Below, piece by piece: positions 20,725 to 59,505 of a DNA stretch of 64,000 bases; the first letter of the stretch is position 1; every line of letters starts with the position of its first letter. The notes under the pieces are model-generated. The model was not told the DNA's origin, did not search any database, and was given only the letters and a program-made list of their open reading frames with translations. The translations under genes and the position numbers were made by a program. The stretch lies in contig DUMU01000048.1 of NCBI GenBank assembly GCA_012839805.1, positions 62,001 through 126,000 of the forward strand. Reading direction: 5' to 3'. The DNA comes from Bacillota bacterium (GTDB lineage Bacteria; Bacillota; Limnochordia; Limnochordales; DUMU01).

Positions 20725-20760
20725 CGCCCCTCACCCTAACCCACGGAGGTGCACGGGATC

Positions 20761-33990: not shown

Positions 33991-34062
33991 ACTCGCCCCC
34001 CACCTTAATCCGGGCGGCTCGGCCGGCCACCCTTGACCGCCGGGCGGCCCTCCACGAGCAAA

Positions 34063-34085
34063 GGCAGGGGCTGTGTGCCCCTGCC
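34063..34085 (-). terminator. Stem-loop between the PF10091 and GH94 genes
   Basis: ggcaggggc and gcccctgcc form a perfect 9-bp stem with a 5-nt loop in the 167-bp gap; on the minus strand it is followed by a short T run (tttgctcg). It may partly terminate module C transcripts before GH94. Confidence 0.6.
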
Positions 34086-34157
34086 AATACACCTTTTGCG
34101 CCGCTGTACCGCACGCTTGAGACCTCAGCCCGGGCCGGCGCTGCCCACGGCTTCCCA

Positions 34158-36071
34158 TCAGAACCCCAGATCTGACCGGTAAGCGGGCGTTACCGCATAG
34201 TCAGCCTTCTTGTCCACGAATCCGGCCAGCTCCAGGCTCCGCCGGACGTACTCGTTTTTCATCATGAGCTTCCAGATCAGGCCCGAGCGATAGTTCTCGA
34301 GCATGAGCAGGACGACACCCTCGTCGATGCCGATGAACTCCGTCGAGTACCAGTCGAGATCAACGTTGAAGGCACTCACGAAGCCGTAACGCCCCCAAAC
34401 CAGCGGCCCGTGCTTTTCCAGCATGCCCCGGATGGAGCGCAGGGCGAGGTCCGGCACGAGCGGCAGCGAGGCAACTGAGGCATACGGCGCGATCGTCCCG
34501 TCATGATTGCCCGGGCTCGCCCCATAGGCCCGGTACCCTCCCGGTCCGTCGGAAGCGCTGAGGCCCCATATATCCTCGTCGTACGTATGGTACTTATCCT
34601 TCAGACGGATCGAAAACGCCCGGTTCCGCTGGGCCGCCAGCACGGCGTTGTTCCAGTAGTTCGCGTAGTAGTCTTCCTTGTCCCGCAGGTCGATCCAGGC
34701 GAGCGGGTAAAGGTAGGTGAAGAGAACCTCGTTGGGCTCAAATATGTAGTCCCGGGTCGCCGGCCGTAACATCGCGTCCCAGGCGCTCGCCGGTATCGGA
34801 TGGGTAGGTGAACCGAGGGCCAGCAAGTATAGCAACAGCCCCTCGTTGAACTGTTCCCACCGGGCCCGGATGAATCCGGCCCTGGGCAGCCACCCCATGG
34901 AGGGCGTCTCGCCCCCGGCCATCATCCACTCCCAGTCCACTTGCCGGTAGAGCTGGTCGGCCAGGGTCTCAACCTCTGTCCCTGCGAAGTACTCACCGGC
35001 CACCAGCGCTCCGGCAATAAAGAGAGCGGTATCGATCGAGGACAGTTCACTGTCACGAACGCGGCGGCCGCTGCTCATATCCACAAAGTGGTAGAAGAAA
35101 CCCCGGTAACCTTCTACCCCACCGCCCGCAAAGGTTCGCAGGGTGGTTAATGCCCGCTCGTATCCCTGCTCCCGGGAGATCCAACCCCTCTCGGCGCCCA
35201 CCACGATCGCGCCGAGTCCGAAGCCGACCGCGGCGATGCTCGACGGCGAATCGGCCGTACTTCTATCCTTGACCAGGCCGTTTTCCGGGTTGACCTCGTT
35301 CCAGAAGTAGTCGAATGCCCTCCGGGCAATGACGTCGATCAACTCGCCGTCGGGGAGCTTGGTCAGTTGGGTCACCTCTTCCCTAATCTCGGGGGACACA
35401 CGCTCGAGGAGCTGCGCCCTGGTCATCACCAGCTCGGGCGGCGCTTTCTCCACCCTGATCCCGTCCAGGTAAAACGGCTCGCTCAGCGGCACTTTGTTGC
35501 CTTCCGCATCAAACCCGGCGAAAGCCAGGTATACCACGTACCGGTTGCCCGGCTGAACCTTCCACATGATAGGCGGCAACTCGTAGCGAATCTCGTTCCA
35601 TCCGGGGTGAACCTTCGTCTCGGAGAAAACACCACCCACCCAGCTCCAACCGGAGGTTACATCTGCCATACCGAGGAAGTACATGGTGGAGTTGAGCCGG
35701 TTCTCGGGCGGCAGGTACACATTGAGGTATACGATACCTCCCTCGGCCCAGGCGGCCACCCGCTCCCGCTCCAGGGGTAATGCCACCTTGGTCTCGGCCG
35801 AGTTCCCGCTGGGGATTACCTTCATCGAATGCGTACCCTGAATCTTCACCCGGTCACTCAGCTCGAACCGGGCGCCCGTATTGTCGTTGTGGAAAGTGCC
35901 GATCTCGGTTTCGGAGTCCATGGTCCAAATCCACCGGAATTGGTCCTCCGCCGTCGCCGCCCCGTTCACGGCAGCTGCGACCAGGCCGAAACTACCCCCG
36001 GGGATCGCCAAGCCCAAAAGGACCATGAGGACCAGAAGGACGCGCGCGGGTGTAAGCGATCTGGCTTTCAC
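34158..36071 (-). CDS. Secreted PF10091 (glycoamylase-like, GH144-related) glucanase with N-terminal binding domain
   Basis: The 637-aa protein starts at GTG 36071 behind AGGAGG. A signal peptide (about residues 1-34) is followed by a beta-sandwich domain (about 44-210, WTMDSETEIGTFHNDNTGAR ... PFYLDGIRVEKA), then a PF10091 (alpha/alpha)6 domain (about 240-630) with FDYFWNEVNPENGLVKDRS, GYRGFFYHFVDMSSG, YDEDIWGLSASDGPGGYRAY and DGTIAPYASVASLP. PF10091 includes the GH144 endo-beta-1,2-glucanases, so a secreted endo-glucanase is likely; beta-1,2 specificity is inference. The N-terminal domain is nearly duplicated as a separate gene just upstream (36148-36762). Confidence 0.88.
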   Translation of the reverse strand: MKARSLTPARVLLVLMVLLGLAIPGGSFGLVAAAVNGAATAEDQFRWIWTMDSETEIGTFHNDNTGARFELSDRVKIQGTHSMKVIPSGNSAETKVALPLERERVAAWAEGGIVYLNVYLPPENRLNSTMYFLGMADVTSGWSWVGGVFSETKVHPGWNEIRYELPPIMWKVQPGNRYVVYLAFAGFDAEGNKVPLSEPFYLDGIRVEKAPPELVMTRAQLLERVSPEIREEVTQLTKLPDGELIDVIARRAFDYFWNEVNPENGLVKDRSTADSPSSIAAVGFGLGAIVVGAERGWISREQGYERALTTLRTFAGGGVEGYRGFFYHFVDMSSGRRVRDSELSSIDTALFIAGALVAGEYFAGTEVETLADQLYRQVDWEWMMAGGETPSMGWLPRAGFIRARWEQFNEGLLLYLLALGSPTHPIPASAWDAMLRPATRDYIFEPNEVLFTYLYPLAWIDLRDKEDYYANYWNNAVLAAQRNRAFSIRLKDKYHTYDEDIWGLSASDGPGGYRAYGASPGNHDGTIAPYASVASLPLVPDLALRSIRGMLEKHGPLVWGRYGFVSAFNVDLDWYSTEFIGIDEGVVLLMLENYRSGLIWKLMMKNEYVRRSLELAGFVDKKADYAVTPAYRSDLGF

Positions 36072-36147
36072 CGGGCATGCCTCCTATTACTGTGGCTTTC
36101 TCTCCGCAGAGAGACTTCCCCCAACTATGTTTCAACACTCACAACTG

Positions 36148-36762
36148 CTACGGTTGAACTGCCTTCTCCACCCGGATTCCATCCAGATAGAATGGTTCGG
36201 TAAGCGGAACCTTGTTATTGTTGGCGTCGAATCCGGCGAAGGCAAAATACAGGATGTAGCGGCCGCCGGCGTCCACCTTTTGCATGGGTTCGGCCAAGGT
36301 GAAGCGGACCTCGTTCCAACCGGGCTTTACCTCAGTCTTGGAGAACACTCCTTCTACCCAGGACCAGCCGCTCGTTACGTTGGCCATGCCGAGGAAAAAC
36401 ATTCTCGGGTTCAGCTTGTTCTCGGGGGGCAAATACACATTGAGAACCACGGTGTCGTTCCCAACCCAGGCTGCCAGCTTCTCGCCCTCGAGTGGTATGG
36501 CCAGCTTGGTCTCTATGGCACTACCGCTTGGTATTACGGCCACGGAATGCTTACCCTCGATCACGTACTCGCTACTCAGCTTGAACTTGGCACCCGTGTT
36601 ATCGTTCGTGTAGGTGAAGACCTCACCCATCGTTTCCATGGTCCATAGGTATTGAGGGGTTGGGTCGGCACCAAATGTACCCGCAGCAGAAATGACTACC
36701 GCAAAGGCCGTCAGTCCCAGCAGTGTCACGACAAACCTTACACCCCGTCCGATTCCCATCAT
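36148..36762 (-). CDS. Stand-alone secreted carbohydrate-binding-like domain
   Basis: A 204-aa protein: signal peptide (about residues 1-32, ending FGA) plus one beta-sandwich domain. It aligns throughout with residues 40-210 of the neighbouring PF10091 enzyme, sharing NDNTGA, VIPSG, ETK, LNVYLPPEN, FLGMA, VTSGWSW, PGWNE, AFAGFDA and EPFYLDGIRVEKA. I infer a carbohydrate-binding module that arose by duplication of, or was the source for, the enzyme's own module. Start ATG 36762 has AGGAGG eight bases upstream. Second gene of module C, between the SBP and the glucanase. Confidence 0.8.
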   Translation of the reverse strand: MMGIGRGVRFVVTLLGLTAFAVVISAAGTFGADPTPQYLWTMETMGEVFTYTNDNTGAKFKLSSEYVIEGKHSVAVIPSGSAIETKLAIPLEGEKLAAWVGNDTVVLNVYLPPENKLNPRMFFLGMANVTSGWSWVEGVFSKTEVKPGWNEVRFTLAEPMQKVDAGGRYILYFAFAGFDANNNKVPLTEPFYLDGIRVEKAVQP

Positions 36763-36865
36763 CCAGGCCCCCTCCTTTTTTGTCAGTCGTCGTCTGGCCT
36801 GTCCCGGGCTCCTCTCCGGAAGGATGGCCCGGGCCGGTAAGAGACTGCGCCACGTGTCGCCGGCA

Positions 36866-38158
36866 TCAAGTCGTCCTTAGCAACTGCGTAGCCTTCTGCG
36901 CTTCACCGGTTACCGCCTGTTCGAGAGTCTGCTTACCCTCCAGGGTCGCCCGCATGGCGTTTTCGATCCCTGCCAAGACGTCGGCGAGCTTGTTGGCATT
37001 GGCCGGGAAAGGCACCGTTTCGCTGGCTGCAGCAAGGAAGATGAGCCAGCGCGGGTCGTCCTTCCAGGGGGCAAAGCCTTTGATCACGGAGATGCGGGCC
37101 GGCTGGTGGGAGTTGATGCGGGAGATCTCTGCCATCCTCTCCGGTTCCGTGATGAATTCGATGAATTTCCACGCCGCCTCTGGATGCTTGCTCGTACGCG
37201 AGATGGCCCATTTGTTCACGAAGAGCATACCGGATCGGTTAACCTTCTTCGGGGGCAACGCCACTCCCAGGGCCGCCACGTTCGCCGGATCCGCCTGCTG
37301 CATCTGCCCGAGCACCCAGGCTCCCGCATAACCCATGGCTGACGTACCGGTTACCACCGACTCGGCGCCTTTCCACGGCGACCCCCATGGCCCTGCAACC
37401 TTGTACCGTTGGGAAAGATCCACTACGAACTGCATAGCCTCGATAGCAGCCGGGGAGTCGTAAGCAGCCCTCATGCCATCAGGAGTAACGAAGCGCGCCC
37501 CGTTTTGGAGTATGAAGATGCCTACGACGGACCAGTGCGGCCACAAATTGATTGCATCACGCTTGAACTCGCCCTTTTCGTCCCGGATAACCAGCTTCTT
37601 GCTGAATTCTACCAGCTCATCCCAGGTGGCAGGCGGGTGGCGAGAATCGAGGCCGGCTAGCTCGAAGAAGTCCTTCCGATAGAATAGGGTTCGCTGGTCC
37701 AAACGATAAGGAATGGTGTAAAGTTTGCCGTCGATGGTACCGTCCATCAGCGCCGGCGGCGGATAGTCGGCCAAACCTTCCCATTGGTCGGCCCATTGAT
37801 TCAGCGGCCGCACCATGCCCGCCCGTACGTAACTGCCGAGAAGCTCCCCGCCCACGGTGAAGACGTCCGGTGCCCTGCCCGAAGCAAATAGCACCGGGAC
37901 CTTGCTTAGGTAGGTATTCCAGTCAGCGAGCTGGATGTCGACTTTGATTCCGGTAGCTTTCTCAAAAGCAGGTTTAAGGACTTTCTGATACCACTCCGCG
38001 GCCTGTGGGTTTTCCGCCTCGGGAGTCATGACGGTTATGGAGGTATCCGCACACGTTCCCACAGAAGTGAAAGCGACCGCGGACAGGCCAACGGCAGTCA
38101 ACCCAATCAACCAGGACGAGATCCTCATCCGGCGACTCGGTACTGCTCGCATTGCCAT
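36866..38158 (-). CDS. Extracellular solute-binding protein (family 1, sugar type)
   Basis: The 430-aa protein starts at ATG 38158, seven bases after GGAGGG; the open frame to 38275 has no site. Its signal peptide (about residues 11-36, ISSWLIGLTAVGLSAVAFTS) is followed by VGTCAD, where the Cys lacks a proper lipobox (Thr at -1). Landmarks are LFASGRAPDVFTVGG and LYTIPYRLDQRTLFYRKDFF. It sits directly downstream of a LacI gene and upstream of the binding-domain/glucanase/phosphorylase genes, so a beta-gluco-oligosaccharide ligand is likely. No permease genes accompany it. Confidence 0.92.
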   Translation of the reverse strand: MAMRAVPSRRMRISSWLIGLTAVGLSAVAFTSVGTCADTSITVMTPEAENPQAAEWYQKVLKPAFEKATGIKVDIQLADWNTYLSKVPVLFASGRAPDVFTVGGELLGSYVRAGMVRPLNQWADQWEGLADYPPPALMDGTIDGKLYTIPYRLDQRTLFYRKDFFELAGLDSRHPPATWDELVEFSKKLVIRDEKGEFKRDAINLWPHWSVVGIFILQNGARFVTPDGMRAAYDSPAAIEAMQFVVDLSQRYKVAGPWGSPWKGAESVVTGTSAMGYAGAWVLGQMQQADPANVAALGVALPPKKVNRSGMLFVNKWAISRTSKHPEAAWKFIEFITEPERMAEISRINSHQPARISVIKGFAPWKDDPRWLIFLAAASETVPFPANANKLADVLAGIENAMRATLEGKQTLEQAVTGEAQKATQLLRTT

Positions 38159-38192
38159 CTCGTTTCCCTCCTTTGGCTCATGCGAGTTGAGA

Positions 38193-38203
38193 ACACGTGT
38201 GCA
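38193..38203. promoter_or_regulatory. Possible LacI operator half-match upstream of the SBP
   Basis: ACACGTGTGCA has the CACGTG core and one TGC arm of the perfect palindrome found upstream of the adjacent lacI gene (39422-39435). It lies 35 bp before the SBP start. The match is partial, so this is a tentative site. Confidence 0.35.
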
Positions 38204-38280
38204 TCCATCTAAACACCCTCTCTTACCGTGCTGTTGATGTCTCCAGTGTCTCACCCCCCTTCTCACCGCTGGCAACCGTC

Positions 38281-39357
38281 CTATCCCGCGGTTTTGGCCA
38301 GACTGCCTGGCCGTTCTCTCGCCTCGGTGAGTGGCGCCAGCGGTGGCCTGGCTGTTGACTCCCGTACGACTAACTCGGCTTTGAGGAGCACTTCCTGGCT
38401 GCCGGAACGACGCCGCCGGTTGAGCCGCTCGATGAGCAGCCGGGCAGCGGCTTCTCCCATCTCCTCGATGGGCTGGTGAACCGTGGTCAGCGCCGGCCGC
38501 AGGTAGGCAGCGGATTCGATGTCGTCGTAGCCTACCACCGAGACGTCCTCGGGAACAGCGAGGCCCCTGGCTTGCAAAGCCGCGATCCCTCCCAGGGCCA
38601 CCCGATCGTTATAGGCGAAGATCGCCGTGGGCCACGAATCAGCAGACAGGGAAAAGAGTTGCCGCACCGCGGTGGCCCCGGCCTCTTCAGTGTAGCCCCC
38701 CGGTACGACCAGGGCCGGGTCGAAAGCCACGCCGGCCGACGCCAGGGCATCGCGGTACCCCTGCAGGCGCTCCCGGTTTTCGCGGGATTCTTTCGGCCCG
38801 GTTACGAAGGCAATACGCCGGTGCCCCAGGTCCAAGAGGTGCCGGGTTGCCTGCAGGGCCCCGTCCCGGTTGTCAACCCGCACCGAGTCTATGCCCAGAC
38901 CGAGGATCTGCGGTTCGAGCAGCACTACGGGGGTTTTCTGGCTGATGATTTCGAGCAGAGCTGCCTTGGGCAGGCGTCGAGCCATCAGGATCAGCCCGTC
39001 TACCCGCTGCTCCGAGACCTGGGCCAGCGCGTCCAACTCCCGGCGACGCTCGGCATGCGTCAGGTAGAGGGAGAGACCAAACCCCGCCTCGTAGGTGACC
39101 CGATCGACCCCATCGACGATGCGGCCGAAAAACATGTCTGCCACCACCGGGATTACCAGACCGATCGCCTGCATCCGGCGGGAGACCAGCCCCCGGGCCG
39201 CTACGTTGGGCCGGTAGCCGAGGCGCTCCACCGCCTCCATCACCCGGCTCCGGGTCTCGGGACTGATGCGGGGATCGTTGTGAATGGCCCGGGAGACCGT
39301 CGAATGGGCTACCCCCAGCTCCCTGGCTATATCCTTGATCGTCACTGCCATGGCCAT
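38281..39357 (-). CDS. LacI-family transcriptional regulator
   Basis: A 358-aa repressor with an N-terminal HTH (TIKDIARELGVAHSTVSRAI) and hinge helix (YRPNVAARGLVSR), then a periplasmic-binding-protein-like effector domain (IGLVIPVVADMFFGRIVDGV, VDGLILMARR, VSVVGYDDIESAAYLRPALT). Likely ligand is an oligosaccharide released by module C. ATG 39357 or 39351 may be used; neither has a strong ribosome-binding site. A perfect 14-bp palindrome 65 bp upstream suggests autoregulation. The gene is followed after 122 bp by the module C SBP on the same strand. Confidence 0.93.
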   Translation of the reverse strand: MAMAVTIKDIARELGVAHSTVSRAIHNDPRISPETRSRVMEAVERLGYRPNVAARGLVSRRMQAIGLVIPVVADMFFGRIVDGVDRVTYEAGFGLSLYLTHAERRRELDALAQVSEQRVDGLILMARRLPKAALLEIISQKTPVVLLEPQILGLGIDSVRVDNRDGALQATRHLLDLGHRRIAFVTGPKESRENRERLQGYRDALASAGVAFDPALVVPGGYTEEAGATAVRQLFSLSADSWPTAIFAYNDRVALGGIAALQARGLAVPEDVSVVGYDDIESAAYLRPALTTVHQPIEEMGEAAARLLIERLNRRRRSGSQEVLLKAELVVRESTARPPLAPLTEARERPGSLAKTAG

Positions 39358-39712
39358 CGCCCGCGGCCTCGTCCCCGCCCCGTTGGTTGAACTTCCCTTG
39401 CCGGTTCCGCTTCTCCAGCTATGCTCACGTGAGCACAAATCAAGAATAGGTTACCTCGTTTGCTATGACCCGTCAAGCGGTTCTTCGGCCGGAAGTTGTC
39501 CGGTGGTCCGAGGCCGGGGCCGGGGGGTGACCCCTTCGTCTGGGCACCGGGCGCGGGGGCTTCCTCCAGGTACATCCAGCCTTTAGGCGATCGGGGGATC
39601 GCCCACAGGTACTTGACAGACACCCGACCGGCAGGGATTCGAGCGGCGCCGGGCTAAATGCTTACGGTCGAGAGTTCGCTGACCGCTTGCAACACCGAAG
39701 GGGGCACTCCGT
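39358..39712. other. Divergent intergenic region, lacI / discoidin–DUF4855 gene
   Basis: About 355 bp without a gene. It contains the palindrome at 39422-39435 and a TTGACA hexamer (39613-39618) on the plus strand, for which I could not find a matching -10 box at normal spacing. Confidence 0.5.
39422..39435. promoter_or_regulatory. Perfect palindromic operator candidate for the module C LacI protein
   Basis: TGCTCACGTGAGCA is a perfect 14-bp inverted palindrome, 65 bp before the lacI start. Length, symmetry and central CG step are typical of LacI-family operators. It is also in the divergent promoter region of the gene at 39713. Confidence 0.6.
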
Positions 39713-45080: not shown

Positions 45081-46490
45081 CTACTTGACCGGCACTACCG
45101 TGACCGGGCCAAGTTCCGCACTGTGCTTCTCCAGCCAGCGGATGGCGCTCTCGAGGTCTTGAGCCTGGTAGAGGTTGTACCAGTTATCCCACTCGAAAAC
45201 CTCGCCGGGCTCGGCATGCAGAGGCCAATCGCCCTTCGCCATGTCGGGCTCGAGTTTCACCTGGATGCCGTGGTCGAGGCGGCGCTGTACTATCTCCGTC
45301 GCTACCCAGCGGAAGTAGATGGTCCGCCACTCACTCTCCAGCTGCCAGCCCAGCCCCTTGATCTTGCCCGCCAGATCCTCGGCCACCGGCGGCGGGTTGA
45401 CGACTATCTCCGCCACCCCCATACCGCTTTGGGCAGAGTAGTTGGTCCGCCATTTCTCGACGCTGGCGAATATATAGGAAGCGCCCCAGAAAGGTGGCTG
45501 CGGCCCCCGGGCATCGGCAAAGGCGATGAATGGTTTGCCGTCGACCTCCACCACCGCGCCCTTCTCCCGATAGTAGTCAACGCTGCTTCTGCCTTCCTCT
45601 TCCGCAAAGTCGAGCCAGCGGAAAGGCGCCAGCACGTGCCGGGCATCCTTGGCGTCTGCCATCACCGCGTTGACGATGGTACCCAGTTTGGTGAAATCAG
45701 TGTACGCCTTCACCAGTGCCGTCGTGTGTACGCGGATGTCACCGGTGGGATAGATGGCAACGACCACATTGACCCGCAGGCCGGGGAAGACGTCGCTGGC
45801 ATACTGCTGGACCACCGTGGCCCGTACCGGGCTCTTCTTGAGCACGGCACCCTTCACTATCCTCAAGGGCTCCTCCAGTGTGGTCCGCTCCTCGTGCGGC
45901 CCCAGGCTTCCGCCCGACCAGTAACGGCTGCCGGGAAAGCCGGCATATCGGACCATCCCGAGATCCTTGACATAGGTTTGCTCCACACCGGCAAACCGGG
46001 TAACGTTCACCAGCCCGAACGGCGTGACGGTAGCCGCCAGCTTCCCGTCCGTGGTGGTGATGTTCACCTCACGATTGGGTCCCGTCTCGATGGTGAATTG
46101 GTCCGGATACTGGGCGGGATCTGCCCATTCGTCGTCGGTCACCCGGATGGTCACCGGGCCGGTGGCGAGGAAGGCAATCTCGTCCACCCGGGATAGTTCA
46201 CCGGAAAGGTCGATATCGTCAATCTGGAAGGGAATCTCATTACCGGCTTGATCGAGGACCCGCAACGAATCCCAGTTCACGAAGAAGTCCTTGTCAAGCT
46301 GGTCACGCACCTCCCCTACGGGAACAGCGACCGGAACCGGCTTACCACTGTTACTTACCACGTTTACCGTGAAACTACGCTCATCTGCGGATACGGTCGC
46401 CGCCCCCGCACCCAAAAACAGGGCCAGGACGGTGAGCAGCAAAACGGCATGCTTGCGGCTTGTCAGCTTCTCCTCGCGTTTTGCCATCAT
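45081..46490 (-). CDS. Secreted protein of unknown function (module D)
   Basis: The 469-aa protein starts at ATG 46490 after AAAGGGG; the longer open frame is not supported. The signal peptide is about residues 15-37 (AVLLLTVLALFLGAGAAT, then SADE). The mature protein is beta-rich: FTVNVVSNSGKPVPVAVPVG, then FFVNWDSLRVLDQAGNEIPF, QIDDID, a central stretch VVQQYASDVFPGLRVNVVVA and a C-terminus rich in Trp and Tyr (EPGEVFEWDNWYNLYQAQDL). The start resembles the N-terminal sandwich of proteins found near polysaccharide lyases, but I do not recognise the family. It is last in the toroid–LacI–SBP operon, so it probably handles the same glycan. Confidence 0.75.
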   Translation of the reverse strand: MMAKREEKLTSRKHAVLLLTVLALFLGAGAATVSADERSFTVNVVSNSGKPVPVAVPVGEVRDQLDKDFFVNWDSLRVLDQAGNEIPFQIDDIDLSGELSRVDEIAFLATGPVTIRVTDDEWADPAQYPDQFTIETGPNREVNITTTDGKLAATVTPFGLVNVTRFAGVEQTYVKDLGMVRYAGFPGSRYWSGGSLGPHEERTTLEEPLRIVKGAVLKKSPVRATVVQQYASDVFPGLRVNVVVAIYPTGDIRVHTTALVKAYTDFTKLGTIVNAVMADAKDARHVLAPFRWLDFAEEEGRSSVDYYREKGAVVEVDGKPFIAFADARGPQPPFWGASYIFASVEKWRTNYSAQSGMGVAEIVVNPPPVAEDLAGKIKGLGWQLESEWRTIYFRWVATEIVQRRLDHGIQVKLEPDMAKGDWPLHAEPGEVFEWDNWYNLYQAQDLESAIRWLEKHSAELGPVTVVPVK

Positions 46491-46592
46491 GTTGATACCC
46501 CTTTCCTTGGATTGAATTCCCGTACGCGCTTCGCCGGACCAACGCTTGGATCCCAAGTCGCCGCGCCATCTGTGAGAGCCCTTCACCCCCCG

Positions 46593-47903
46593 TCAAAAGA
46601 GAAGTTTGTCGACTCGCTCGACAGCGGTGGTTACCGCTGCCTCCACCGACTTCTTGCCGGTGACGGCGGCAACGAACTCTTCACTTAGAGCTCGGAAGAT
46701 CTCCGGGACGTTGGGAACGATGTCGAGCCCTCGCGTGTGGGCCATATTCAGCGCAAACGGCACGCTGAGCGGGTTGGCCCGGAACCAGCTGGCGAACGCT
46801 TCGTGGCGGGCCAAGTCCTCGCGCACCGGGAAGCGCCCGCTTTCCAGGAGCACCCGTTCGTTTTCGGGCTCCAGCATGAACTTGAGAAACTCCCAGCCTT
46901 CCTTGGGATGGGCCGCCTGTTTGGGAATGGCCAGCCCTTTCATGTTGAAGTACGTATAAGGAGGCTGAGGTCCGCTATAGTCATCGGGAACGAGAATCGG
47001 AGCCACGTTCCACTTGAACTTAGCCTGATCGCGATAAAGTACGACGGCCACTTGACCGTAGCGCTGGGTGAAAATGCGCTGCTGTACGAAACCGTCCCCA
47101 CTGATGGGTTCTTGCGGGGTGAACTTGTAGCGGATCATGTCGGCGAAGAATTGGAAGACGTTCCGGGCGTACTGGTTGTCGAAAGCAGCCCGGTTATTGC
47201 GCACCAGCGTCCGACCGCCCGAAGCTGCCAGGTAGAAAGCGTAGAAATCACCTATGCGCAGATCCCAGGGGTCGACCGTCAGGCCGATATCGATACTGGC
47301 TACCTTCAGCGCCTGGAGCTTGCGGCTGAGCTCGATGAACTTGCCGTAGGTCCGGGGGAAGGAGGGCCATCCGACCCGCTCCATCAGGTCTTCGTTATAT
47401 TCCATCATCGTGATTTCCGCCTGCCAGGGAATCAGGTAATAGTGGGAGTCGCGCAGGCGGTAGTTGCGGGTGATGTTGTGAGCCGTCCGCTTTTCCAGCA
47501 CGGGCCAAAAGTCGGGAAACTGGTCGAGAGGGAGCAGTGCCCCGTCTTGGGCAAAACTCGCCATCGGCCCGGCGGCCATCGCCGTATACAGGTCGGGCGC
47601 CGTCCCGCCGGCCATGCGGATCAGCAGGATCTGTTCGGCCACGCTCCCCTCGGGGATCATCTCCACCTTGACCTGGACGTCCTTGTGGGTCGCGTTCCAG
47701 CGCTCGGCGATGGCGGCCACCACATCGTACTCGGACTGGGCGGGGCCGGTAAGAACCTGGACCGTGACGGGCGCCGCGCTCACCAGCGCCGCTCGCCCCA
47801 TACCCATCGACGCCAACAGGGCGAACCCCGTCCCGATCACCATCACCAGAACCGGGTTAGGAACCGGCATCAGCCTCGAGCGTTTCGCCGTCCGTATACG
47901 CAT
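46593..47903 (-). CDS. Extracellular solute-binding protein (family 1, sugar type)
   Basis: A 436-aa protein starting at ATG 47903 with AAAGGAG upstream. The signal peptide (about residues 17-44, PVLVMVIGTGFALLASMGMG) has no Cys. Landmarks are IRMAGGTAPDLYTAMAAG and the YLIPWQAEITMMEYNEDLM sugar-site stretch. It lies between a LacI gene and a secreted protein of unknown family, without permeases. Confidence 0.92.
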   Translation of the reverse strand: MRIRTAKRSRLMPVPNPVLVMVIGTGFALLASMGMGRAALVSAAPVTVQVLTGPAQSEYDVVAAIAERWNATHKDVQVKVEMIPEGSVAEQILLIRMAGGTAPDLYTAMAAGPMASFAQDGALLPLDQFPDFWPVLEKRTAHNITRNYRLRDSHYYLIPWQAEITMMEYNEDLMERVGWPSFPRTYGKFIELSRKLQALKVASIDIGLTVDPWDLRIGDFYAFYLAASGGRTLVRNNRAAFDNQYARNVFQFFADMIRYKFTPQEPISGDGFVQQRIFTQRYGQVAVVLYRDQAKFKWNVAPILVPDDYSGPQPPYTYFNMKGLAIPKQAAHPKEGWEFLKFMLEPENERVLLESGRFPVREDLARHEAFASWFRANPLSVPFALNMAHTRGLDIVPNVPEIFRALSEEFVAAVTGKKSVEAAVTTAVERVDKLLF

Positions 47904-47987
47904 GCCACCAGCTCCTTTCTAGCCGGCCGTACCGGGTACCGGCTCGAGTACCTGCTTTTCATCGAGTTCACCAGCTATCCTGAAACC

Positions 47988-49157
47988 TCAACCCTTGCTC
48001 CTGGCGCGGCGATCCCCGGCCTGATCCACAGCTACGGCGTTCGATAGAACACCGCCCTCGGCCGGCACGGCCGCGCAGCCGCAGGACTGCCGGACGACCA
48101 ACCTCGTTCCCACCAGCACCGTTTCCCCGATCCCGGCGGGGCCCCCAGGGAATGTACCGTCCACCCCTTCGCTTCTCTGCACTTCCCGCCCCCTTTCCAC
48201 CATCTCGAGCAATATGCGTGCCGCTACCGCCCCGACGTAGTCGGTAAAAACCCGCACGGTGGTGAGCGCAGGCCTCGCCTCCGCTGCCATGGCCACATCG
48301 TCGAAACCCACTATCGCCACATCCCGCGGTACTTCGAGTCCGTTCTCGCGGGCCGCCCGCAAGGCCCCGAGGGCCATCGCATCATTCACGCAGAAAATCG
48401 CTTCTGGTACCGGCTCACCCTCTTTCTGGCACTCCTCCCACAAGCGCGAGAATGCCTGGTAACCGCTGAGTTCCGTAGTTTCGTGCATTTCCACGACCCT
48501 GGCCACACCTTCGGCTCCGGCAAGCGCAAGAGTGCTGGCGTAGCCCGAATAGCGACTCCGGCTGCTCGGCCATTCGAGCGGCCCCGAAAGACAAGCGAAG
48601 CGCCGATACCCATGCCCCAGGAGATGCTGAACCGCCTGCACCGCACCCCCCTGGTCATCTCCTGCCACCACCGGGACGTCTGGCATCTCCTGGAACCGGT
48701 TGTCAATCAGCACCATCGGCAACCCTTGCGCCGCCACCTGCCGGGCGAGCTCGAAGGGAACTTCGGGACCGGCCAGCAGGAAACCGCCGAAACGACCGCC
48801 GGCTACCATGCGCAGGAGGTGGTCCAGCTCCATCTCGCCCACGGGGAGCGGCACCAGGTGGTACCCGCGCCGTCCCAGCTCGGCGCTGGCCGAGTAAAGC
48901 ACCACGGAGTAGAAGGGATCTTCGTTACGGCGCACCCGGTGGTAGCGCACGATGAAGCCGAAGGAATCGGGCCGGGCCGAAGTGAGCCGGCGTGCCGAAG
49001 CGTTGGGGACGAACCCCAGGCTGGAAGCGGCGGCCAGAACCCGCCCGCGGGTCGCCTCTCCCGCCCCTCCTTTACCGTTGAGGACACGGGAGACGGTGGC
49101 CACCGATACCCCCGCTTTCGCCGCCACATCCCGGATGGTGAACCGTCCCACGGCCAT
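47988..49157 (-). CDS. LacI-family transcriptional regulator (module D)
   Basis: The 389-aa protein has an N-terminal HTH (RFTIRDVAAKAGVSVATVSR) and hinge (FVPNASARRLTSARP), then the sugar-sensing domain (GFLLAGPEVPFELARQVAAQ, DDQGGAVQAVQHLLGHGYRR, VAIVGFDDVAMAAEARPALT). The C-terminus is extended by about 30 residues with a Cys-Gly-Cys (VVRQSCGCAAVPAEGG), a motif often seen at the end of this class of LacI proteins. It lies inside the module D operon between the toroid protein and the SBP and probably senses the transported sugar. Confidence 0.93.
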   Translation of the reverse strand: MAVGRFTIRDVAAKAGVSVATVSRVLNGKGGAGEATRGRVLAAASSLGFVPNASARRLTSARPDSFGFIVRYHRVRRNEDPFYSVVLYSASAELGRRGYHLVPLPVGEMELDHLLRMVAGGRFGGFLLAGPEVPFELARQVAAQGLPMVLIDNRFQEMPDVPVVAGDDQGGAVQAVQHLLGHGYRRFACLSGPLEWPSSRSRYSGYASTLALAGAEGVARVVEMHETTELSGYQAFSRLWEECQKEGEPVPEAIFCVNDAMALGALRAARENGLEVPRDVAIVGFDDVAMAAEARPALTTVRVFTDYVGAVAARILLEMVERGREVQRSEGVDGTFPGGPAGIGETVLVGTRLVVRQSCGCAAVPAEGGVLSNAVAVDQAGDRRARSKG

Positions 49158-49232
49158 CGTCGCCTCTGCTTAACCGTTTTCTCTTTCGTTACGTTAATTG
49201 GATTCGACGGTTCCGGGCCAATTCCTTCCCGC

Positions 49233-50972
49233 TCACCGGTAGTGGTAGTCGATCACCACGCCGTCGACGAGTAGCTTGTTACCTTCGATGCTGAGGCGGC
49301 CGCCGGCCGGAGTCACCACGATGACGGCCGCCGCTTTCCCGGGCAAGCTGAAACTGCTTTCTCCGGAAAGAGCCCGGCGGATGAACTGCTTGCCCACGGC
49401 ATCATACAAGTCGTGCCGTCCCTCGCCTACGTCGATGAGAACCGTCTTGGCTTCTGGATAGGGGTTGTAGTAGAGGTAAGTAGGATACGCAGGGGAATGG
49501 AAGAAGTCCGTCGCCAGGAGATCCAACTGCAAAATCCCGTCCACGTTCGTTTTGGCTACGATGCCTCCCAGAATCCCCACGTGTGAGCTTCCGTATAGTG
49601 CAAAGTCGGTGGCCGCCCAGCCGGAACGCCGCGCGTCGCCGGTCGCATAGGGGGTTTGGCCCTGCCACTCTCTACGTAACCCCTCGTAAGCGATTACGCT
49701 ATCCGTGTCTTCTCTCCAGTCTTCGCTCGATTGGTGTTGCCCGGGCAGGTACTTGCGGTAGAACAAGCGGGCACTGCTCGCCAGGTTGAGCACCCACTTA
49801 CCCAGCGACCGGGCATAGCGCGGTGCGTAGCGGGCAATGGGCACCAGGGCACCGGCCATCTGGAAAGTATTCATCGCAAAGGCATAGCCGCCGCCGTCGG
49901 TTAGACTCCCCACCAGGCCGTCCACCGGGTAACGCCCCCAGGTGCCCGTGATCACCCCCCATCCCGGCCGCGCGTCCGATGGACCAAAGCACCAGTTGAG
50001 TAGCTTGTCCAGATCGTACTGCCGGCCTAACTCCGCGTTGAGGCGGGCGGCAAGATAAGCACCGAAGGGCAACAGGACTTCGTAAAAGGGATTCACTCCC
50101 AGGGAATCGAGGTATTCCATGGCCCGGTCCGCCGCCTGCAGGAAACGCTCTTCACCAAAGGTGACATAGGCCATATATTCAAGCCACGCGATGCCGGCGG
50201 CGGCGTCCGGTTCAGTCCAGCGCCCGTTCCACACCGGCGCATTACGAGCAAAGTCGAACGCCGTGTAATCGAAATCCGGCCGGCCATCCCTTCCCACCAG
50301 CCGCTCGACGGCCTGGTGGAAGCGGTCGGCCGTCTCATACATCATTTCCCGCAGGCTGAGGCTCCCGCCGCCGTATCGCAAAGGTAGGGGAATCTCGGCT
50401 ACCTGGGGGTACTTGTCGATGAGGCCAAAAAAGAGGATCGATGGGTAAATCTCATACCAGAAACTGTTCCCCGAGCGCCCGCCGATGTTATTTAGCACCA
50501 CCCGCTGCGACTCATCCGGATTGAAGAACGGCGCAGCCATGAGCACCCAGTTGTGACCGTACTGGTTGCTTTTGTCGATACCGACGAGCGTCGCCCCGAG
50601 CAGGGCAGCCAGCACGTTGATCGCTTCCTGGCTGCCGGGGCGTTGCCGGTAATCGCCCACGTAGCTGGGAAGGAAAAAGGTATCCAGGTCGAAGGGGCGC
50701 CGGCTCGTGTCCCACTGCAGTAGCGGCAGGTACTCTCCGGCAGGCCGCGGATTCCCTCCAGGGGCTGCTGAACCGAAGACCAGCGAATCGTACTCACGGG
50801 CCACCTGCCGCCAATCCCTCATGATGTACGGCGATGGCAAGTCCGGCATCAACTCGATACGGGCCACCCCCTCCCCGGCCGCCGCTGCTTCCAGGGAAGC
50901 AAGGTTGCCGGTGATCATCCAAAGGACTGTGACTAATACCGGTACGGCGAACAACTCCATATTGAACTTCAA
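49233..50972 (-). CDS. Secreted protein of unknown family, probable (alpha/alpha) toroid
   Basis: About 579 aa. TTG 50972 lies near a GGGAGGGAGAG stretch; the nearby in-frame ATG at 50960 is an alternative. A signal region is followed by repeated helix pairs rich in aromatic residues: GHNWVLMAAPFFNPDESQRV, SFWYEIYPSILFFGLIDKYP, GIAWLEYMAYVTFGEERFLQ, PFYEVLLPFGAYLAARLNAE, GGGYAFAMNTFQMAGALVPI. A C-terminal beta portion ends SLPGKAAAVIVVTPAGGRLS. The pattern is like glycosidases or lyases of the (alpha/alpha)6 class, but I do not recognise the family. As first gene of the LacI/SBP operon it is the likely enzyme of module D. Confidence 0.75.
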   Translation of the reverse strand: MKFNMELFAVPVLVTVLWMITGNLASLEAAAAGEGVARIELMPDLPSPYIMRDWRQVAREYDSLVFGSAAPGGNPRPAGEYLPLLQWDTSRRPFDLDTFFLPSYVGDYRQRPGSQEAINVLAALLGATLVGIDKSNQYGHNWVLMAAPFFNPDESQRVVLNNIGGRSGNSFWYEIYPSILFFGLIDKYPQVAEIPLPLRYGGGSLSLREMMYETADRFHQAVERLVGRDGRPDFDYTAFDFARNAPVWNGRWTEPDAAAGIAWLEYMAYVTFGEERFLQAADRAMEYLDSLGVNPFYEVLLPFGAYLAARLNAELGRQYDLDKLLNWCFGPSDARPGWGVITGTWGRYPVDGLVGSLTDGGGYAFAMNTFQMAGALVPIARYAPRYARSLGKWVLNLASSARLFYRKYLPGQHQSSEDWREDTDSVIAYEGLRREWQGQTPYATGDARRSGWAATDFALYGSSHVGILGGIVAKTNVDGILQLDLLATDFFHSPAYPTYLYYNPYPEAKTVLIDVGEGRHDLYDAVGKQFIRRALSGESSFSLPGKAAAVIVVTPAGGRLSIEGNKLLVDGVVIDYHYR

Positions 50973-51852: not shown

Positions 51853-52134
51853 TTGACCGCTCCGGAGACCTTGATGAAGTTTGACATGCTGATGGGATTG
51901 CCGTCGCCACGCTATTCGACCGTAGCGGCCATGGTTAAAGAGAATCCAGCCATGCGCTTCTCCTACCAGGTGCTGGAACTTGCCCGCCGCTACCCGGTTT
52001 CCCCGGAGGCCGATCGCCTGACGCGGGTTTGGGCGGCTTACTACCAGAAGATCCTCAAGGGTGAACAAAGCCCGGAGAACGCGATGGCCAGCGCAGCCGA
52101 CGAGTGGAACCAAGTGCTGAAGGCCTATCGCTGA
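51853..52134 (+). pseudogene. 3' remnant of a sugar-type solute-binding protein gene
   Basis: 93 codons ending YYQKILKGEQSPENAMASAA, then DEWNQVLKAYR, the canonical helix at the C-terminus of family-1 SBPs (compare WNQAMTGDLSPEDALKQAAA in the SBP at 52666). No N-lobe, signal peptide or ribosome-binding site precedes it. It is on the plus strand while all neighbours are on the minus strand. Confidence 0.75.
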
Positions 52135-55494: not shown

Positions 55495-58400
55495 TCACTT
55501 GCAGCGCAACAGCATCCTGCCACCTTCGCGTTCGACTGTCGCTAAGTCCACCTCCCACCATTTAGCCGTCTCGTCTCTGTTCACGGGCATCCAGCGCCCG
55601 GCAGCCGAATCCCAGCGCTCCCAGTACCCCGGCTGCACCTGGTCGGTCGCTCCCAACGGCTCGCCGGTCCACGCGAGACCCGCTGTACTCCGCACCATCC
55701 AGTACCGCCAGGGCTCCAGTCCCTCTTCCTCATACTTTTCCATCAACTTGGCAAAGACCAACTGCTGATCGACGACAAACGTGTCCCCGGCCTGCACCTC
55801 ATAGACGGCGATCGGATCCCCATTGCTGAAGCCACTGGTAGAGGCGAACCGGACGACTTTCAGGTCGCTGACAGTGACGATCGTGGTCTCGCCACCGGTG
55901 GCGAGGTTGCGGACCAGCCTGCCATCGTACACCCGCGTGCCCATCCCGTATTCCGCGGCGAAAGGCAGCGGCGTCCGTAAAGTGATGACGCGGCCCCCGA
56001 AGGCGATCCGGTCGATCTGGCCACGCGCCAGCTCCAATGAGCTATCACCCAATTCAATCACGGATCGTCCCTGCTCATCCCGGCTCACGCTAGTGATCGT
56101 GAACGCCGAATCCCGGGTGTACTTGGGGTTGCTGATGATCACTACGAGCCCTGCCAGTACCTGACCCAGCGGGAGCTGGGCGTCGGTCACCAGGCGGTTC
56201 CTGGCGTAGTCGACTTCCACTATCTTCCCGCGCCAGTGCACCGGAGCTCCTTCGGCAACGCTACCAGCTGCCGCCGGTCCGATCAGCCTCAGGTCCCAAT
56301 CGCCGAAAGAGAGCTCACTTCCGGCAATCAGTTGGGCGGAGACCGGGGCTCCATCCAGCTCGCGCACCACGGTCCAACGTGCGTCACTGGTGAGAGCCAG
56401 GGGCGGCTCAGTTGCCACCCGCGTCCCCCCCTGTCGCTGGGCCATCACATAATCGCGGGCCTTACCGCCGGCCATCTCCGGATTCAGGTCGAGAACCAAA
56501 CCCACACTCCCCTCGCCACCGGCCAAAGGCATGAGCTGGGACGATAAAACCACCGGTTTGCCTTCCCGATACGCTTGAATGACGGCCAGATAACGGGTCT
56601 CGGCGGAGACATCACCTGCTATCCCGCTGCCGACCCCGCCGGTATTGTCGTTCTCGCCGACAACGGGCACCTTACCTCTGGCTATGAAGAATCCAAACCG
56701 GCGAGTGCCGGAAAGATCGGGACCGATACCCTGATAGACCTCGAGAGGCCGGGAAGCGTATAACTCCAAATCCACCCGCGTCTGATACGCGTCTTGCAGC
56801 TCCCACCGGGCCACCACCGAACGACCTGGGGGAAGCTGAGCCGGCACTGTGCCTACCTCCGCATCAGCCGTGGCTTCTACGTCGACCTTTGCTTCTTCTT
56901 CGGCATCGCCCCGGGCCTTGAGGTCCGCTTCTGTCACCGCTTTCAAGTCGTAGATGAAGCCATAACCATTCTTGGGCGGGGCGGTCCAGTTGCGGGGCTG
57001 CACTCCCTCCGAAGCAACTCCGAGATCCCTGATCCTTTCGCCTGTGGCGATCCGCTCGCCCCAGCTTCGCCCCGGGGCATCCCAACTTGCCTCCGGCTGC
57101 GAAAGGCCTGATAGCGTCCAGACTCCGGGCAACGCCGCTACCTTCATCGGTGTACCGTTGGCGTCGAACAACGACAGCTTTGACGCTCGTGTATGGAATA
57201 CATAGTCATACGTCTGGCCACCTTGCAGGCGAAAGAGATCTATCCAGTACGATCCCATCGGCGCAAACGGATCAGCCAGTGCTTGGGGCGTTCGAACATC
57301 CAACTGCAGTACCGCCCGCCGGTATTCCTTTACTCCGTCCGCGGGTTGGAAGTTAGCCGCCGCATCCATCTCCACCAGCGAAACGGGCGCGTAAGGCGTC
57401 GATGTGGCAAAGGAGATAACCTTCGATCCCGGTCCGATCTGGAACAGGTTGTAATTCCGGTTCCGGTCTTCATTGACAACCACCAAGTTGTGCGCCACTT
57501 TGCGCACGCCCCAGCCCAGGTGCACCGCCGAACCGAACGTGCCATAGCCGATGTCCGCAGTGAGTTCCATACCAAATCCGTAGAGATTCAGCCCCAGCAC
57601 ATCGTCATGGGCGTGCGGCAGTGACGTACCACCCCGCAGTACCGCCGCCATCTGATTGAACGGCGTGCCTCCCCGCAGGATGGCCAACTGCGTGCCGCCA
57701 AAGAAAGCCGAGGGTGCCGGAGCGGCCGCCGACGCCCCTGTGGGCAGCGATGCTACCGCCAGCGATGAAGCGCCAGCCGCTGCAGGTTCCGCCCCAGAGA
57801 CGCAGGCCGGCCCCGCCACCGCTTGCAGCGCCGACGACACCAGTCGTTCATCCAGCTTCACGGCATGGAAGAGAGCCCAAATATCCCGCCGGGAACGGTC
57901 GAGCAAGTCGTTTAGCCGGTCAACGGTCTCCGGCGTGACCGGTTTGCCCAGGTCCGCGCGATAGTCCCATCCCGCGGCAGTAAGCAGCAGGGCGGCAAAG
58001 CGGCCGCGATCCGCTTCCGAAGGCGCATACGCCAGGAACTTCTCGGCGGCCGTCCTTTCGTCGGCCGGCAGATCGGGGCTGAAGTACACCTGCCCCCAGT
58101 CGGGCGCAGCATTGCCGAAGGCCGGCAGGTGCCCGGCCGCATCCACTCGCTGCCGCCAGCCCACCAGCAGCTTTTGCAACTTCGGGTGGGCAAAGAAATT
58201 GCCGCCATACGGGAATTGCGCCCGATCGGGATACGCGGACGGATCGGTAACCCGGAAATGGGCCGGATAGACCGGACCGCCGCCGGCCGCATCCCCTGCT
58301 GGCGCACCCGCTCGATAACGGGCCGGATCGTAGTGATACGCCACCTCAGCCATATCGAGGAACACGCCTTTGGTGAAGTTGGCGTAACTCAAAGAAGTCT

Positions 58401-59505
58401 CGTAGTACATGCCATCACGATCGATGGTGTTGCCAAAGAAGACGCCGAGCGCATCCATCCCCCACCTGATGTAATCGGGGACACCCAGAACGATGCCCAC
58501 CCCCAGCAACGCCCGGACCGCATCGGCCTCATGGTTGTGCAGGGAGGTGAGATTACCGCCCCGCAGGTTAAACTCGCCGAAGAGGTAATCTTCCAGCAAG
58601 TTTTGCTCGATGTTTTCCCGAACGGTAAAGCCCCCCGATTTTTGTTTGCCATAATTGTCGGGGTTCGTGGGGGAAACCTGGTGCATCCACGGGGTGTTGT
58701 ACAGGAGGTCGTAATCCCGCAGCAAGTGCATCTTGGAACGGTGGACGATGCTGGTGAGCCAGTGCAGCCGCCCCTCATCGCTGGTCTCGCTGCGTTGAAA
58801 GTCACGCGGGCCGATGGTGGTGGCGGACAGGGTGGCCAGCGCATCCAGGATGAGGATCGCCTTACGGGCATACTCGGGTTTACCGGTAAGAGCAAAAGCA
58901 TAGGCCAGGTCGTGTACTGCCCCCCGGTCGTTGCCCCAGCCGGCCAGTTCATTAGTAACGTTGGCGTTCCAGACCCCCCGCAGATAGTACCGGACGCCGT
59001 TGATTACCACACCCTTGCCTTCATCGTGGTAGGGCGACTTGGGGTCGGCGAAATTGATTATGTGCCCCTGGGGACAGCGCAACACCCCGGCGGCATCCAG
59101 GGAAGCCACGCCGCCACCGCCGAAGGAAGGCCAGGGTGTGCCACACACTGGGCAACCGGCGATCCCGTAAGCAAAGACCGATCCCCGGGGTGGAATCACG
59201 CTGAGCAGCCACTCATCAGACCGCCGGACCCACTGGTCGGCCCGGGCGACCACCTCGCGTGCCAACTGCCTGGCCCACGGCTCGGTGGCTATCCTTGCCC
59301 GGGCCCTCACAATATCCTCGGTTGTAATGTAGAGGCCCACTTTGGGCACCACGGTTATCGTCGCATCCGTCGTCGTCAACTGCGAATCCACCGGTCCTTT
59401 GGGCTCCTGCGCTTGCAGAGCAGGAGTCACCATGGCCGCCGTGGCAACGAGCACTGCACCGACTGCCGCCATGTTCCATCCGAACTTTCTCAACCCACGT
59501 GTCAC
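55495..59505 (-). CDS. Very large secreted heparinase II/III-type polysaccharide lyase
   Basis: A 1336-aa protein with GTG start 59505, seven bases after GGGGAGGTG. Signal peptide about residues 1-32. An (alpha/alpha) toroid (about 55-560) contains a CPVCG ... RCPQGH zinc-ribbon-like pair (about 117-146) and HNHEADAVRALLG (about 325). A heparinase II/III sandwich (about 610-800) has TSLPHAHDDVLGLNLYGFGM and ADIGYGTFGSAVHLGWGVRK. The last 500 residues are additional beta-rich modules of unknown type. Heparinase II/III enzymes eliminate uronic-acid-containing glycans (heparin, alginate, ulvan-like). The length is about twice the family norm. First enzyme gene of module E. Confidence 0.88.
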   Translation of the reverse strand: MTRGLRKFGWNMAAVGAVLVATAAMVTPALQAQEPKGPVDSQLTTTDATITVVPKVGLYITTEDIVRARARIATEPWARQLAREVVARADQWVRRSDEWLLSVIPPRGSVFAYGIAGCPVCGTPWPSFGGGGVASLDAAGVLRCPQGHIINFADPKSPYHDEGKGVVINGVRYYLRGVWNANVTNELAGWGNDRGAVHDLAYAFALTGKPEYARKAILILDALATLSATTIGPRDFQRSETSDEGRLHWLTSIVHRSKMHLLRDYDLLYNTPWMHQVSPTNPDNYGKQKSGGFTVRENIEQNLLEDYLFGEFNLRGGNLTSLHNHEADAVRALLGVGIVLGVPDYIRWGMDALGVFFGNTIDRDGMYYETSLSYANFTKGVFLDMAEVAYHYDPARYRAGAPAGDAAGGGPVYPAHFRVTDPSAYPDRAQFPYGGNFFAHPKLQKLLVGWRQRVDAAGHLPAFGNAAPDWGQVYFSPDLPADERTAAEKFLAYAPSEADRGRFAALLLTAAGWDYRADLGKPVTPETVDRLNDLLDRSRRDIWALFHAVKLDERLVSSALQAVAGPACVSGAEPAAAGASSLAVASLPTGASAAAPAPSAFFGGTQLAILRGGTPFNQMAAVLRGGTSLPHAHDDVLGLNLYGFGMELTADIGYGTFGSAVHLGWGVRKVAHNLVVVNEDRNRNYNLFQIGPGSKVISFATSTPYAPVSLVEMDAAANFQPADGVKEYRRAVLQLDVRTPQALADPFAPMGSYWIDLFRLQGGQTYDYVFHTRASKLSLFDANGTPMKVAALPGVWTLSGLSQPEASWDAPGRSWGERIATGERIRDLGVASEGVQPRNWTAPPKNGYGFIYDLKAVTEADLKARGDAEEEAKVDVEATADAEVGTVPAQLPPGRSVVARWELQDAYQTRVDLELYASRPLEVYQGIGPDLSGTRRFGFFIARGKVPVVGENDNTGGVGSGIAGDVSAETRYLAVIQAYREGKPVVLSSQLMPLAGGEGSVGLVLDLNPEMAGGKARDYVMAQRQGGTRVATEPPLALTSDARWTVVRELDGAPVSAQLIAGSELSFGDWDLRLIGPAAAGSVAEGAPVHWRGKIVEVDYARNRLVTDAQLPLGQVLAGLVVIISNPKYTRDSAFTITSVSRDEQGRSVIELGDSSLELARGQIDRIAFGGRVITLRTPLPFAAEYGMGTRVYDGRLVRNLATGGETTIVTVSDLKVVRFASTSGFSNGDPIAVYEVQAGDTFVVDQQLVFAKLMEKYEEEGLEPWRYWMVRSTAGLAWTGEPLGATDQVQPGYWERWDSAAGRWMPVNRDETAKWWEVDLATVEREGGRMLLRCK

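Follow-up and report, generated by a model that had tools for sequence, protein, structure and literature searches.

Judged by sequence, the first gene of a four-gene operon in a Limnochordales genome encodes a member of a widespread protein family, here called X, which is unassigned by Pfam, NCBIfam and the PDB. The explanation that we prefer, and to which we give an even chance, is that X is an (α/α)6 glycoside hydrolase of unassigned family working in a LacI-controlled module for the scavenging of β-mannosides, likely β-1,2-linked ones. X probably cuts a β-linked mannose chain, because members of its family usually adjoin enzymes for such chains. Phosphorylases acting on β-1,2-mannosides are already known from GH130 and GT108; what is new here is the link of the X family to β-mannosides.

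Operon layout

By the window we mean the whole stretch of 64,000 nucleotides that was analyzed. Its minus strand carries, between 45081 and 50972, four consecutive ORFs: X, a LacI-family regulator, a sugar ABC transporter SBP and a second protein, Y (Table 1). All four genes of the operon proposed in the sequence-only reading (toroid-like, LacI, SBP and β-rich) are therefore present, and the identities given to the LacI and SBP proteins are confirmed by clear Pfam matches.

Table 1. Genes of the operon, in window coordinates
Gene	Position	Strand	Description
X	49233–50972	-	579 aa from TTG; putative secreted toroid protein, candidate glycoside hydrolase
LacI-family regulator	47988–49157	-	Pfam PF00356, PF13377
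Sugar ABC transporter SBP	46593–47903	-	Pfam PF01547
Y	45081–46490	-	469 aa from ATG; β-rich, putative secreted, remote DUF4861 relative

The gaps between successive genes are approximately 75, 84 and 102 bp. The longest ORF of X runs to 51014 (TTG; 593 aa), and a GGAGGGAGA motif lies immediately upstream of the TTG at 50972; that of Y extends to 46586. X and Y both have a hydrophobic N-terminus, that is, a putative signal peptide. Neither is a chance ORF, since both are conserved across many unrelated genomes.

Sequence families and predicted folds of X and Y

X showed no match at E≤1 to Pfam or NCBIfam, and 15 aligned members of its family gave no convincing model in either collection. The commonest weak profile match (5 of the 15 members, best E 0.003) was to the C-terminus of D-glucuronyl C5-epimerase, which is a toroid domain too. 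No related solved sequence was found in the PDB, the only hit being a marginal one to the AGE family (E 0.06). The sequence-only reading had held that X belongs to no family that could be named, and that clear matches to known CAZy families would make this an ordinary locus; Pfam, NCBIfam and the PDB were all negative. It is possible, if rather doubtful, that X belongs to a CAZy-numbered glycoside hydrolase family which is missing from these three collections, a reading that overlaps with the one we prefer. New CAZy families are added yearly; against this stand the 15 members devoid of a model, the lack of a PDB relative, and a literature search which found no X-type enzyme, its coverage limited by search-term syntax.

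When bacterial genomes were scanned, X turned up at ten loci, which belong to Aerophobetes, Halanaerobiaceae, Limnochordales, Cohnella, Paenibacillus, Bacteroidales, Chitinophaga, a planctomycete MAG and an unclassified MAG. A profile search detected X in 5 of 348 genomes from the phylum of the window and in 17 of 345 from that of Chitinophaga, one of the latter being a weak match (E 5e-7). The homologs, which thus come from Bacillota, Bacteroidota, Aerophobetes and one planctomycete, share 37–76% identity with X in an alignment of 29 sequences. S-layer or T9SS sorting domains are present on some X homologs, which speaks for our preferred explanation, and LamG/PKD domains also occur. Three homologs (L002, L005 and L010) start too near an upstream stop to leave room for a signal peptide, which counts against a purely extracellular role and suggests that X proteins can act on imported oligosaccharides as well as in polymer cutting.

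The AlphaFold2 model of X (15 sequences, pLDDT 88.4) consists of a helical toroid followed by a C-terminal β-domain, and the toroid-like shape first claimed for this protein is upheld by both structure prediction and fold comparison. Its nearest Foldseek matches in the PDB are GH127, GH94, GH78, GH9, GH76 and AGE enzymes, together with mannose isomerase. All are distant (E down to 4e-6, TM no more than 0.38 when normalized by X, large rmsd), and as the scores are low the ranking carries little weight. We take X to be of the (α/α)6 fold class, without a close solved relative.

Conserved acidic residues, which the sequence-only reading had proposed to look for, were found: D76, E130, D147, E312, E444 and D460 (593-aa numbering) are invariant in all 29 X sequences. 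Many aromatic and polar residues are invariant as well, across phyla at 37–56% identity. By DSSP of the model E130, E312 and D460 are at or just before helix starts, the usual active-site position in (α/α)6 glycosidases. The same alignment has no conserved cysteine, none being shared by 60% of the homologs, and no invariant histidine of the kind used by AGE enzymes.

The histidine bears on the suggestion that X is a toroid-fold sugar epimerase or lyase rather than a hydrolase. The weak C5-epimerase matches, the AGE-family PDB hit, and the AGE epimerases and mannose isomerase among the fold matches all argue for it. These similarities are only toroid-level, the residue on which AGE enzymes rely is absent, and the partners of X in its loci are phosphorylases and mannosidases, not uronate enzymes; we therefore consider it improbable.

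Y is less clear. It matches DUF4861 (PF16153) at 12.7 bits, below the Pfam gathering cut-off of 22.3, over approximately 50 of 380 positions around a DDxDxxG segment. Five of nine aligned Y-family members show the same weak match (best E 6e-4). The view that Y has no nameable family thus stands insofar as there is no match above the cut-off, and has to be amended by this remote DUF4861 relationship; a literature search on DUF4861 found no paper in the library covered. Of 348 genomes from the phylum of the window, 10 encode a Y homolog. The AlphaFold2 model (pLDDT 62.7) is too weak for a firm fold call. It agrees with the β-rich nature claimed for Y, and its Foldseek matches to a GH38-family protein and to galactose mutarotases suggest, at low confidence, a mutarotase-like β-supersandwich. 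Residues invariant in nine Y sequences include E377, W379, R380, N382, W414, E417, E419 and R421. With such charged and aromatic residues Y may have a catalytic role; alternatively, it may be an accessory protein.

X and Y might instead be non-catalytic surface proteins which bind glycans, as would fit the S-layer and LamG/PKD domains of certain X homologs and the β-rich, low-confidence model of Y. To this we give very little credence: the six acids and many aromatic and polar residues of X are invariant across phyla, and some X homologs cannot accommodate a signal peptide.

Gene neighborhoods and the glycan they point to

Counted by genome, 21 of the 29 with X have a gene for a GH130 β-mannoside phosphorylase/mannosidase no more than 10 kb away from it. 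Given the genome sizes and the number of GH130 copies, 0.5 would be expected. Outside the Bacteroidota the count is 5 of 12 (expected 0.24). The nominal probabilities, 5e-32 for all genomes and 1e-6 outside the Bacteroidota, are indicative only as they ignore shared ancestry and use rough genome sizes. GH130 adjoins X in loci from Bacteroidota, Paenibacillus, Aerophobetes and other Bacillota, and a GH2 β-mannosidase is found in some X loci, including L062. Counting against a β-mannoside are the eight genomes, those of the window and its sister species among them, in which the 10 kb around X hold no GH130. In G020 both X and GH130 are near contig ends, so that linkage there could be hidden. A β-mannoside is, on this genomic evidence, the well supported substrate class of the X loci; the sequence-only reading had predicted a sugar product, naming no substrate, and the neighbors of the homologs now point to this class.

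Which linkage is involved was approached through the GH130 proteins, which in the loci with the best resolution fall in the β-1,2-mannoside branch. The partner of X in Chitinophaga scores 546 bits with Uhgb_MS, whose solved structure includes 1,2-β-mannobiose, and 323 with the β-1,2-mannobiose phosphorylase Lin0857, as against 109 for β-1,4-mannooligosaccharide phosphorylase. Nine other Bacteroidota partners are 54–77% identical to it. Near a Y homolog, the GH130 of L036 matches the β-1,2-mannobiose phosphorylase Teth514_1789 (7FIP) at 490 bits, and those of L031–L033 are 54–60% identical to the L036 protein. The GH130 of L002 is closer to 1,2-β-oligomannan phosphorylase than to others, yet distant. 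DUF1861 proteins are encoded at L003 (9794–10804), L018 (18515–19468) and L036 (3400–4341). The first two, which were searched, match Leishmania MPT-1, -2 and -4 at 162–209 bits. The Leishmania MPT enzymes are GT108 phosphorylases acting on the β-1,2-mannan mannogen (PMC8950772).

Against β-1,2 must be set a second group of Bacteroidota loci, in which X is long (~1050 aa) and, in the members scanned, has PKD, LamG and secretion-tail domains; several of the GH130 types in these loci are not clearly β-1,2. GH130 types thus differ between X loci, and while β-1,2 is the likeliest linkage, another is possible.

The same variation would be expected if X were a debranching glycosidase removing another sugar, for instance arabinofuranosyl or glucosyl side chains that several mannosides share, with GH130 then acting on the bared backbone. 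GH127 β-L-arabinofuranosidases do top the Foldseek list. Nevertheless the TM score by query length does not exceed 0.38 and the conserved cysteine used by GH127 is absent, and we regard debranching as unlikely.

Where contigs are long enough, Y homologs in L031–L036 adjoin GH130, GH5-like and TOR2 genes. TOR2 is a second toroid-like family with no Pfam assignment, and has weak GH9/GH88 matches below cut-off. It adjoins Y homologs at L031 6397–8625, L032 10289–12385, L033 6521–8551 and L036 6195–7985, and is encoded also in the Bacteroidota X loci L062, L067, L068, L070 and L071. Homology between X and TOR2 was considered and rejected; with an hhalign probability of 2% they are separate families at that sensitivity. 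In one Bacillota genus (L014–L018) X is preceded by genes for sugar ABC permeases and for a small secreted protein (~180 aa), and DUF1861 and GH130 genes are found further upstream.

The window genome and known systems

The operon itself contains no GH130, GT108, permease or GH5 gene. The genome encodes a single GH130, on another contig, which is nearest to 1,2-β-oligomannan phosphorylase (203 bits) and scores no more than 113 bits against characterized β-1,4 types. By BLAST ranking the best matches of the operon SBP outside its genus (approximately 150–230 bits) are SBPs of GH130/X/TOR2/Y loci, and the best other SBP of the window scores 65 bits; by sequence it belongs to the clade of those loci. 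The best matches of the operon LacI outside the genus are likewise the LacI proteins of GH130 loci L031, L032, L033 and L036, at scores only modestly above that of another LacI encoded in the window. The sister species keeps LacI, SBP and Y side by side but has X elsewhere, between housekeeping genes. This counts against the explanation that we prefer and makes the operon a loose combination of genes from a common set. Comparison of the regions that precede X and the operon in the window and sister genomes found no shared palindrome which might be a LacI operator.

Under our preferred explanation X would hydrolyze a β-mannosidic bond outside the cell, so shortening or releasing manno-oligosaccharides. 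The SBP would capture the product and deliver it to a permease whose gene is located in another part of the genome, and the only GH130, which despite being unlinked would serve the X module, would phosphorolyze it inside the cell to mannose 1-phosphate. Y would be a co-secreted helper or a second enzyme for the same glycan, and LacI would control the module. A bolder version, which we hold only tentatively, is that X founds a new glycoside hydrolase family depolymerizing or trimming β-1,2-mannan for GH130/GT108-type phosphorylases, and that Y is a further new secreted component of this pathway. The sequence-only reading had named this operon as a site for a new glycosidase or lyase family. For X this is favored by the absence of profile matches, the toroid fold, the invariant acids and the neighbors, and the case for Y is less clear.

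The genome has 79 SBP_bac_1 matches and 19 BPD_transp_1 permease matches, and a permease is found within 5 kb for only 7 of 78 SBPs. The window alone holds SBPs at 20749, 28653, 36866, 42207, 46593, 52666 and 54130 and no permease gene. A similar imbalance is seen in the sister species (73 versus 11), a family member (58 versus 23) and one genome from another family of the class (52 versus 8); other members of the order have 8–43 SBPs and from 43 to at least 109 permeases. These counts suggest that dozens of sugar SBPs share a few permeases. Two permease regions were inspected, on contigs C31 and C37; their permease pairs look oligopeptide-type and were rejected as partners of the orphan SBPs.

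Three further regions of the window deserve mention. Genes for a GH94 phosphorylase, a PF10091 (GH144-type) protein, an SBP and a LacI at 31432–39438 probably form a β-1,2-glucan module, parallel to the β-mannoside module. An 86-aa ORF at 51874–52134 (plus strand), which by eye resembles the C-terminal end of an SBP, is possibly a gene remnant between two modules. At 55495–59505 (minus strand) a protein of 1336 aa matches Alginate_lyase (E 5e-7) and, weakly, heparinase II/III C-terminal domains; together with the two SBPs downstream it probably makes up a polysaccharide lyase module.

β-1,2-Mannosides occur as Candida surface epitopes (PMC4264767) and as a Leishmania storage glycan (PMC8950772). 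The 2014 Thermoanaerobacter study identified no source of 1,2-β-oligomannan in that genus (PMC4264767). Our literature search found no description of an upstream enzyme releasing β-1,2-manno-oligosaccharides, nor any paper on an endo-β-1,2-mannanase, though commas in linkage names hampered it. X is a widespread and cloneable candidate for this step, which makes the question directly testable, and a specific β-1,2-mannoside enzyme would serve as an analytical tool.

Of known enzymes, the GH127/GH146 β-L-arabinofuranosidases resemble X in having a helical toroid and a β-domain and are its top Foldseek matches. Unlike them X is without the conserved catalytic/zinc-binding Cys, identity is approximately 10%, and neither X nor the 15 aligned members match PF07944, the GH127 catalytic domain, at E≤1; GH127 was accordingly rejected. 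GH94 cellobiose/cellodextrin phosphorylases share the (α/α)6 barrel (Foldseek TM 0.31–0.38). In GH94 the supersandwich is N-terminal, whereas the β-domain of X is C-terminal, and X matches neither PF17167 (catalytic) nor PF06165 (supersandwich), so that this family too was rejected. The GH144-type endo-β-1,2-glucanases offer a parallel in which a toroid enzyme is paired with a phosphorylase; membership of X was rejected for want of a PF10091 match. Also among the closest known systems is the Thermoanaerobacter sp. X-514 cluster (Teth514_1785–1796; PMC4264767), composed of GH130 β-1,2-mannoside phosphorylases, a sugar ABC transporter, a GH5 and two hypothetical proteins. The window operon differs from it in lacking GH130, permease and GH5, whereas Y-family loci L031–L034, with their GH5-like gene, resemble it.
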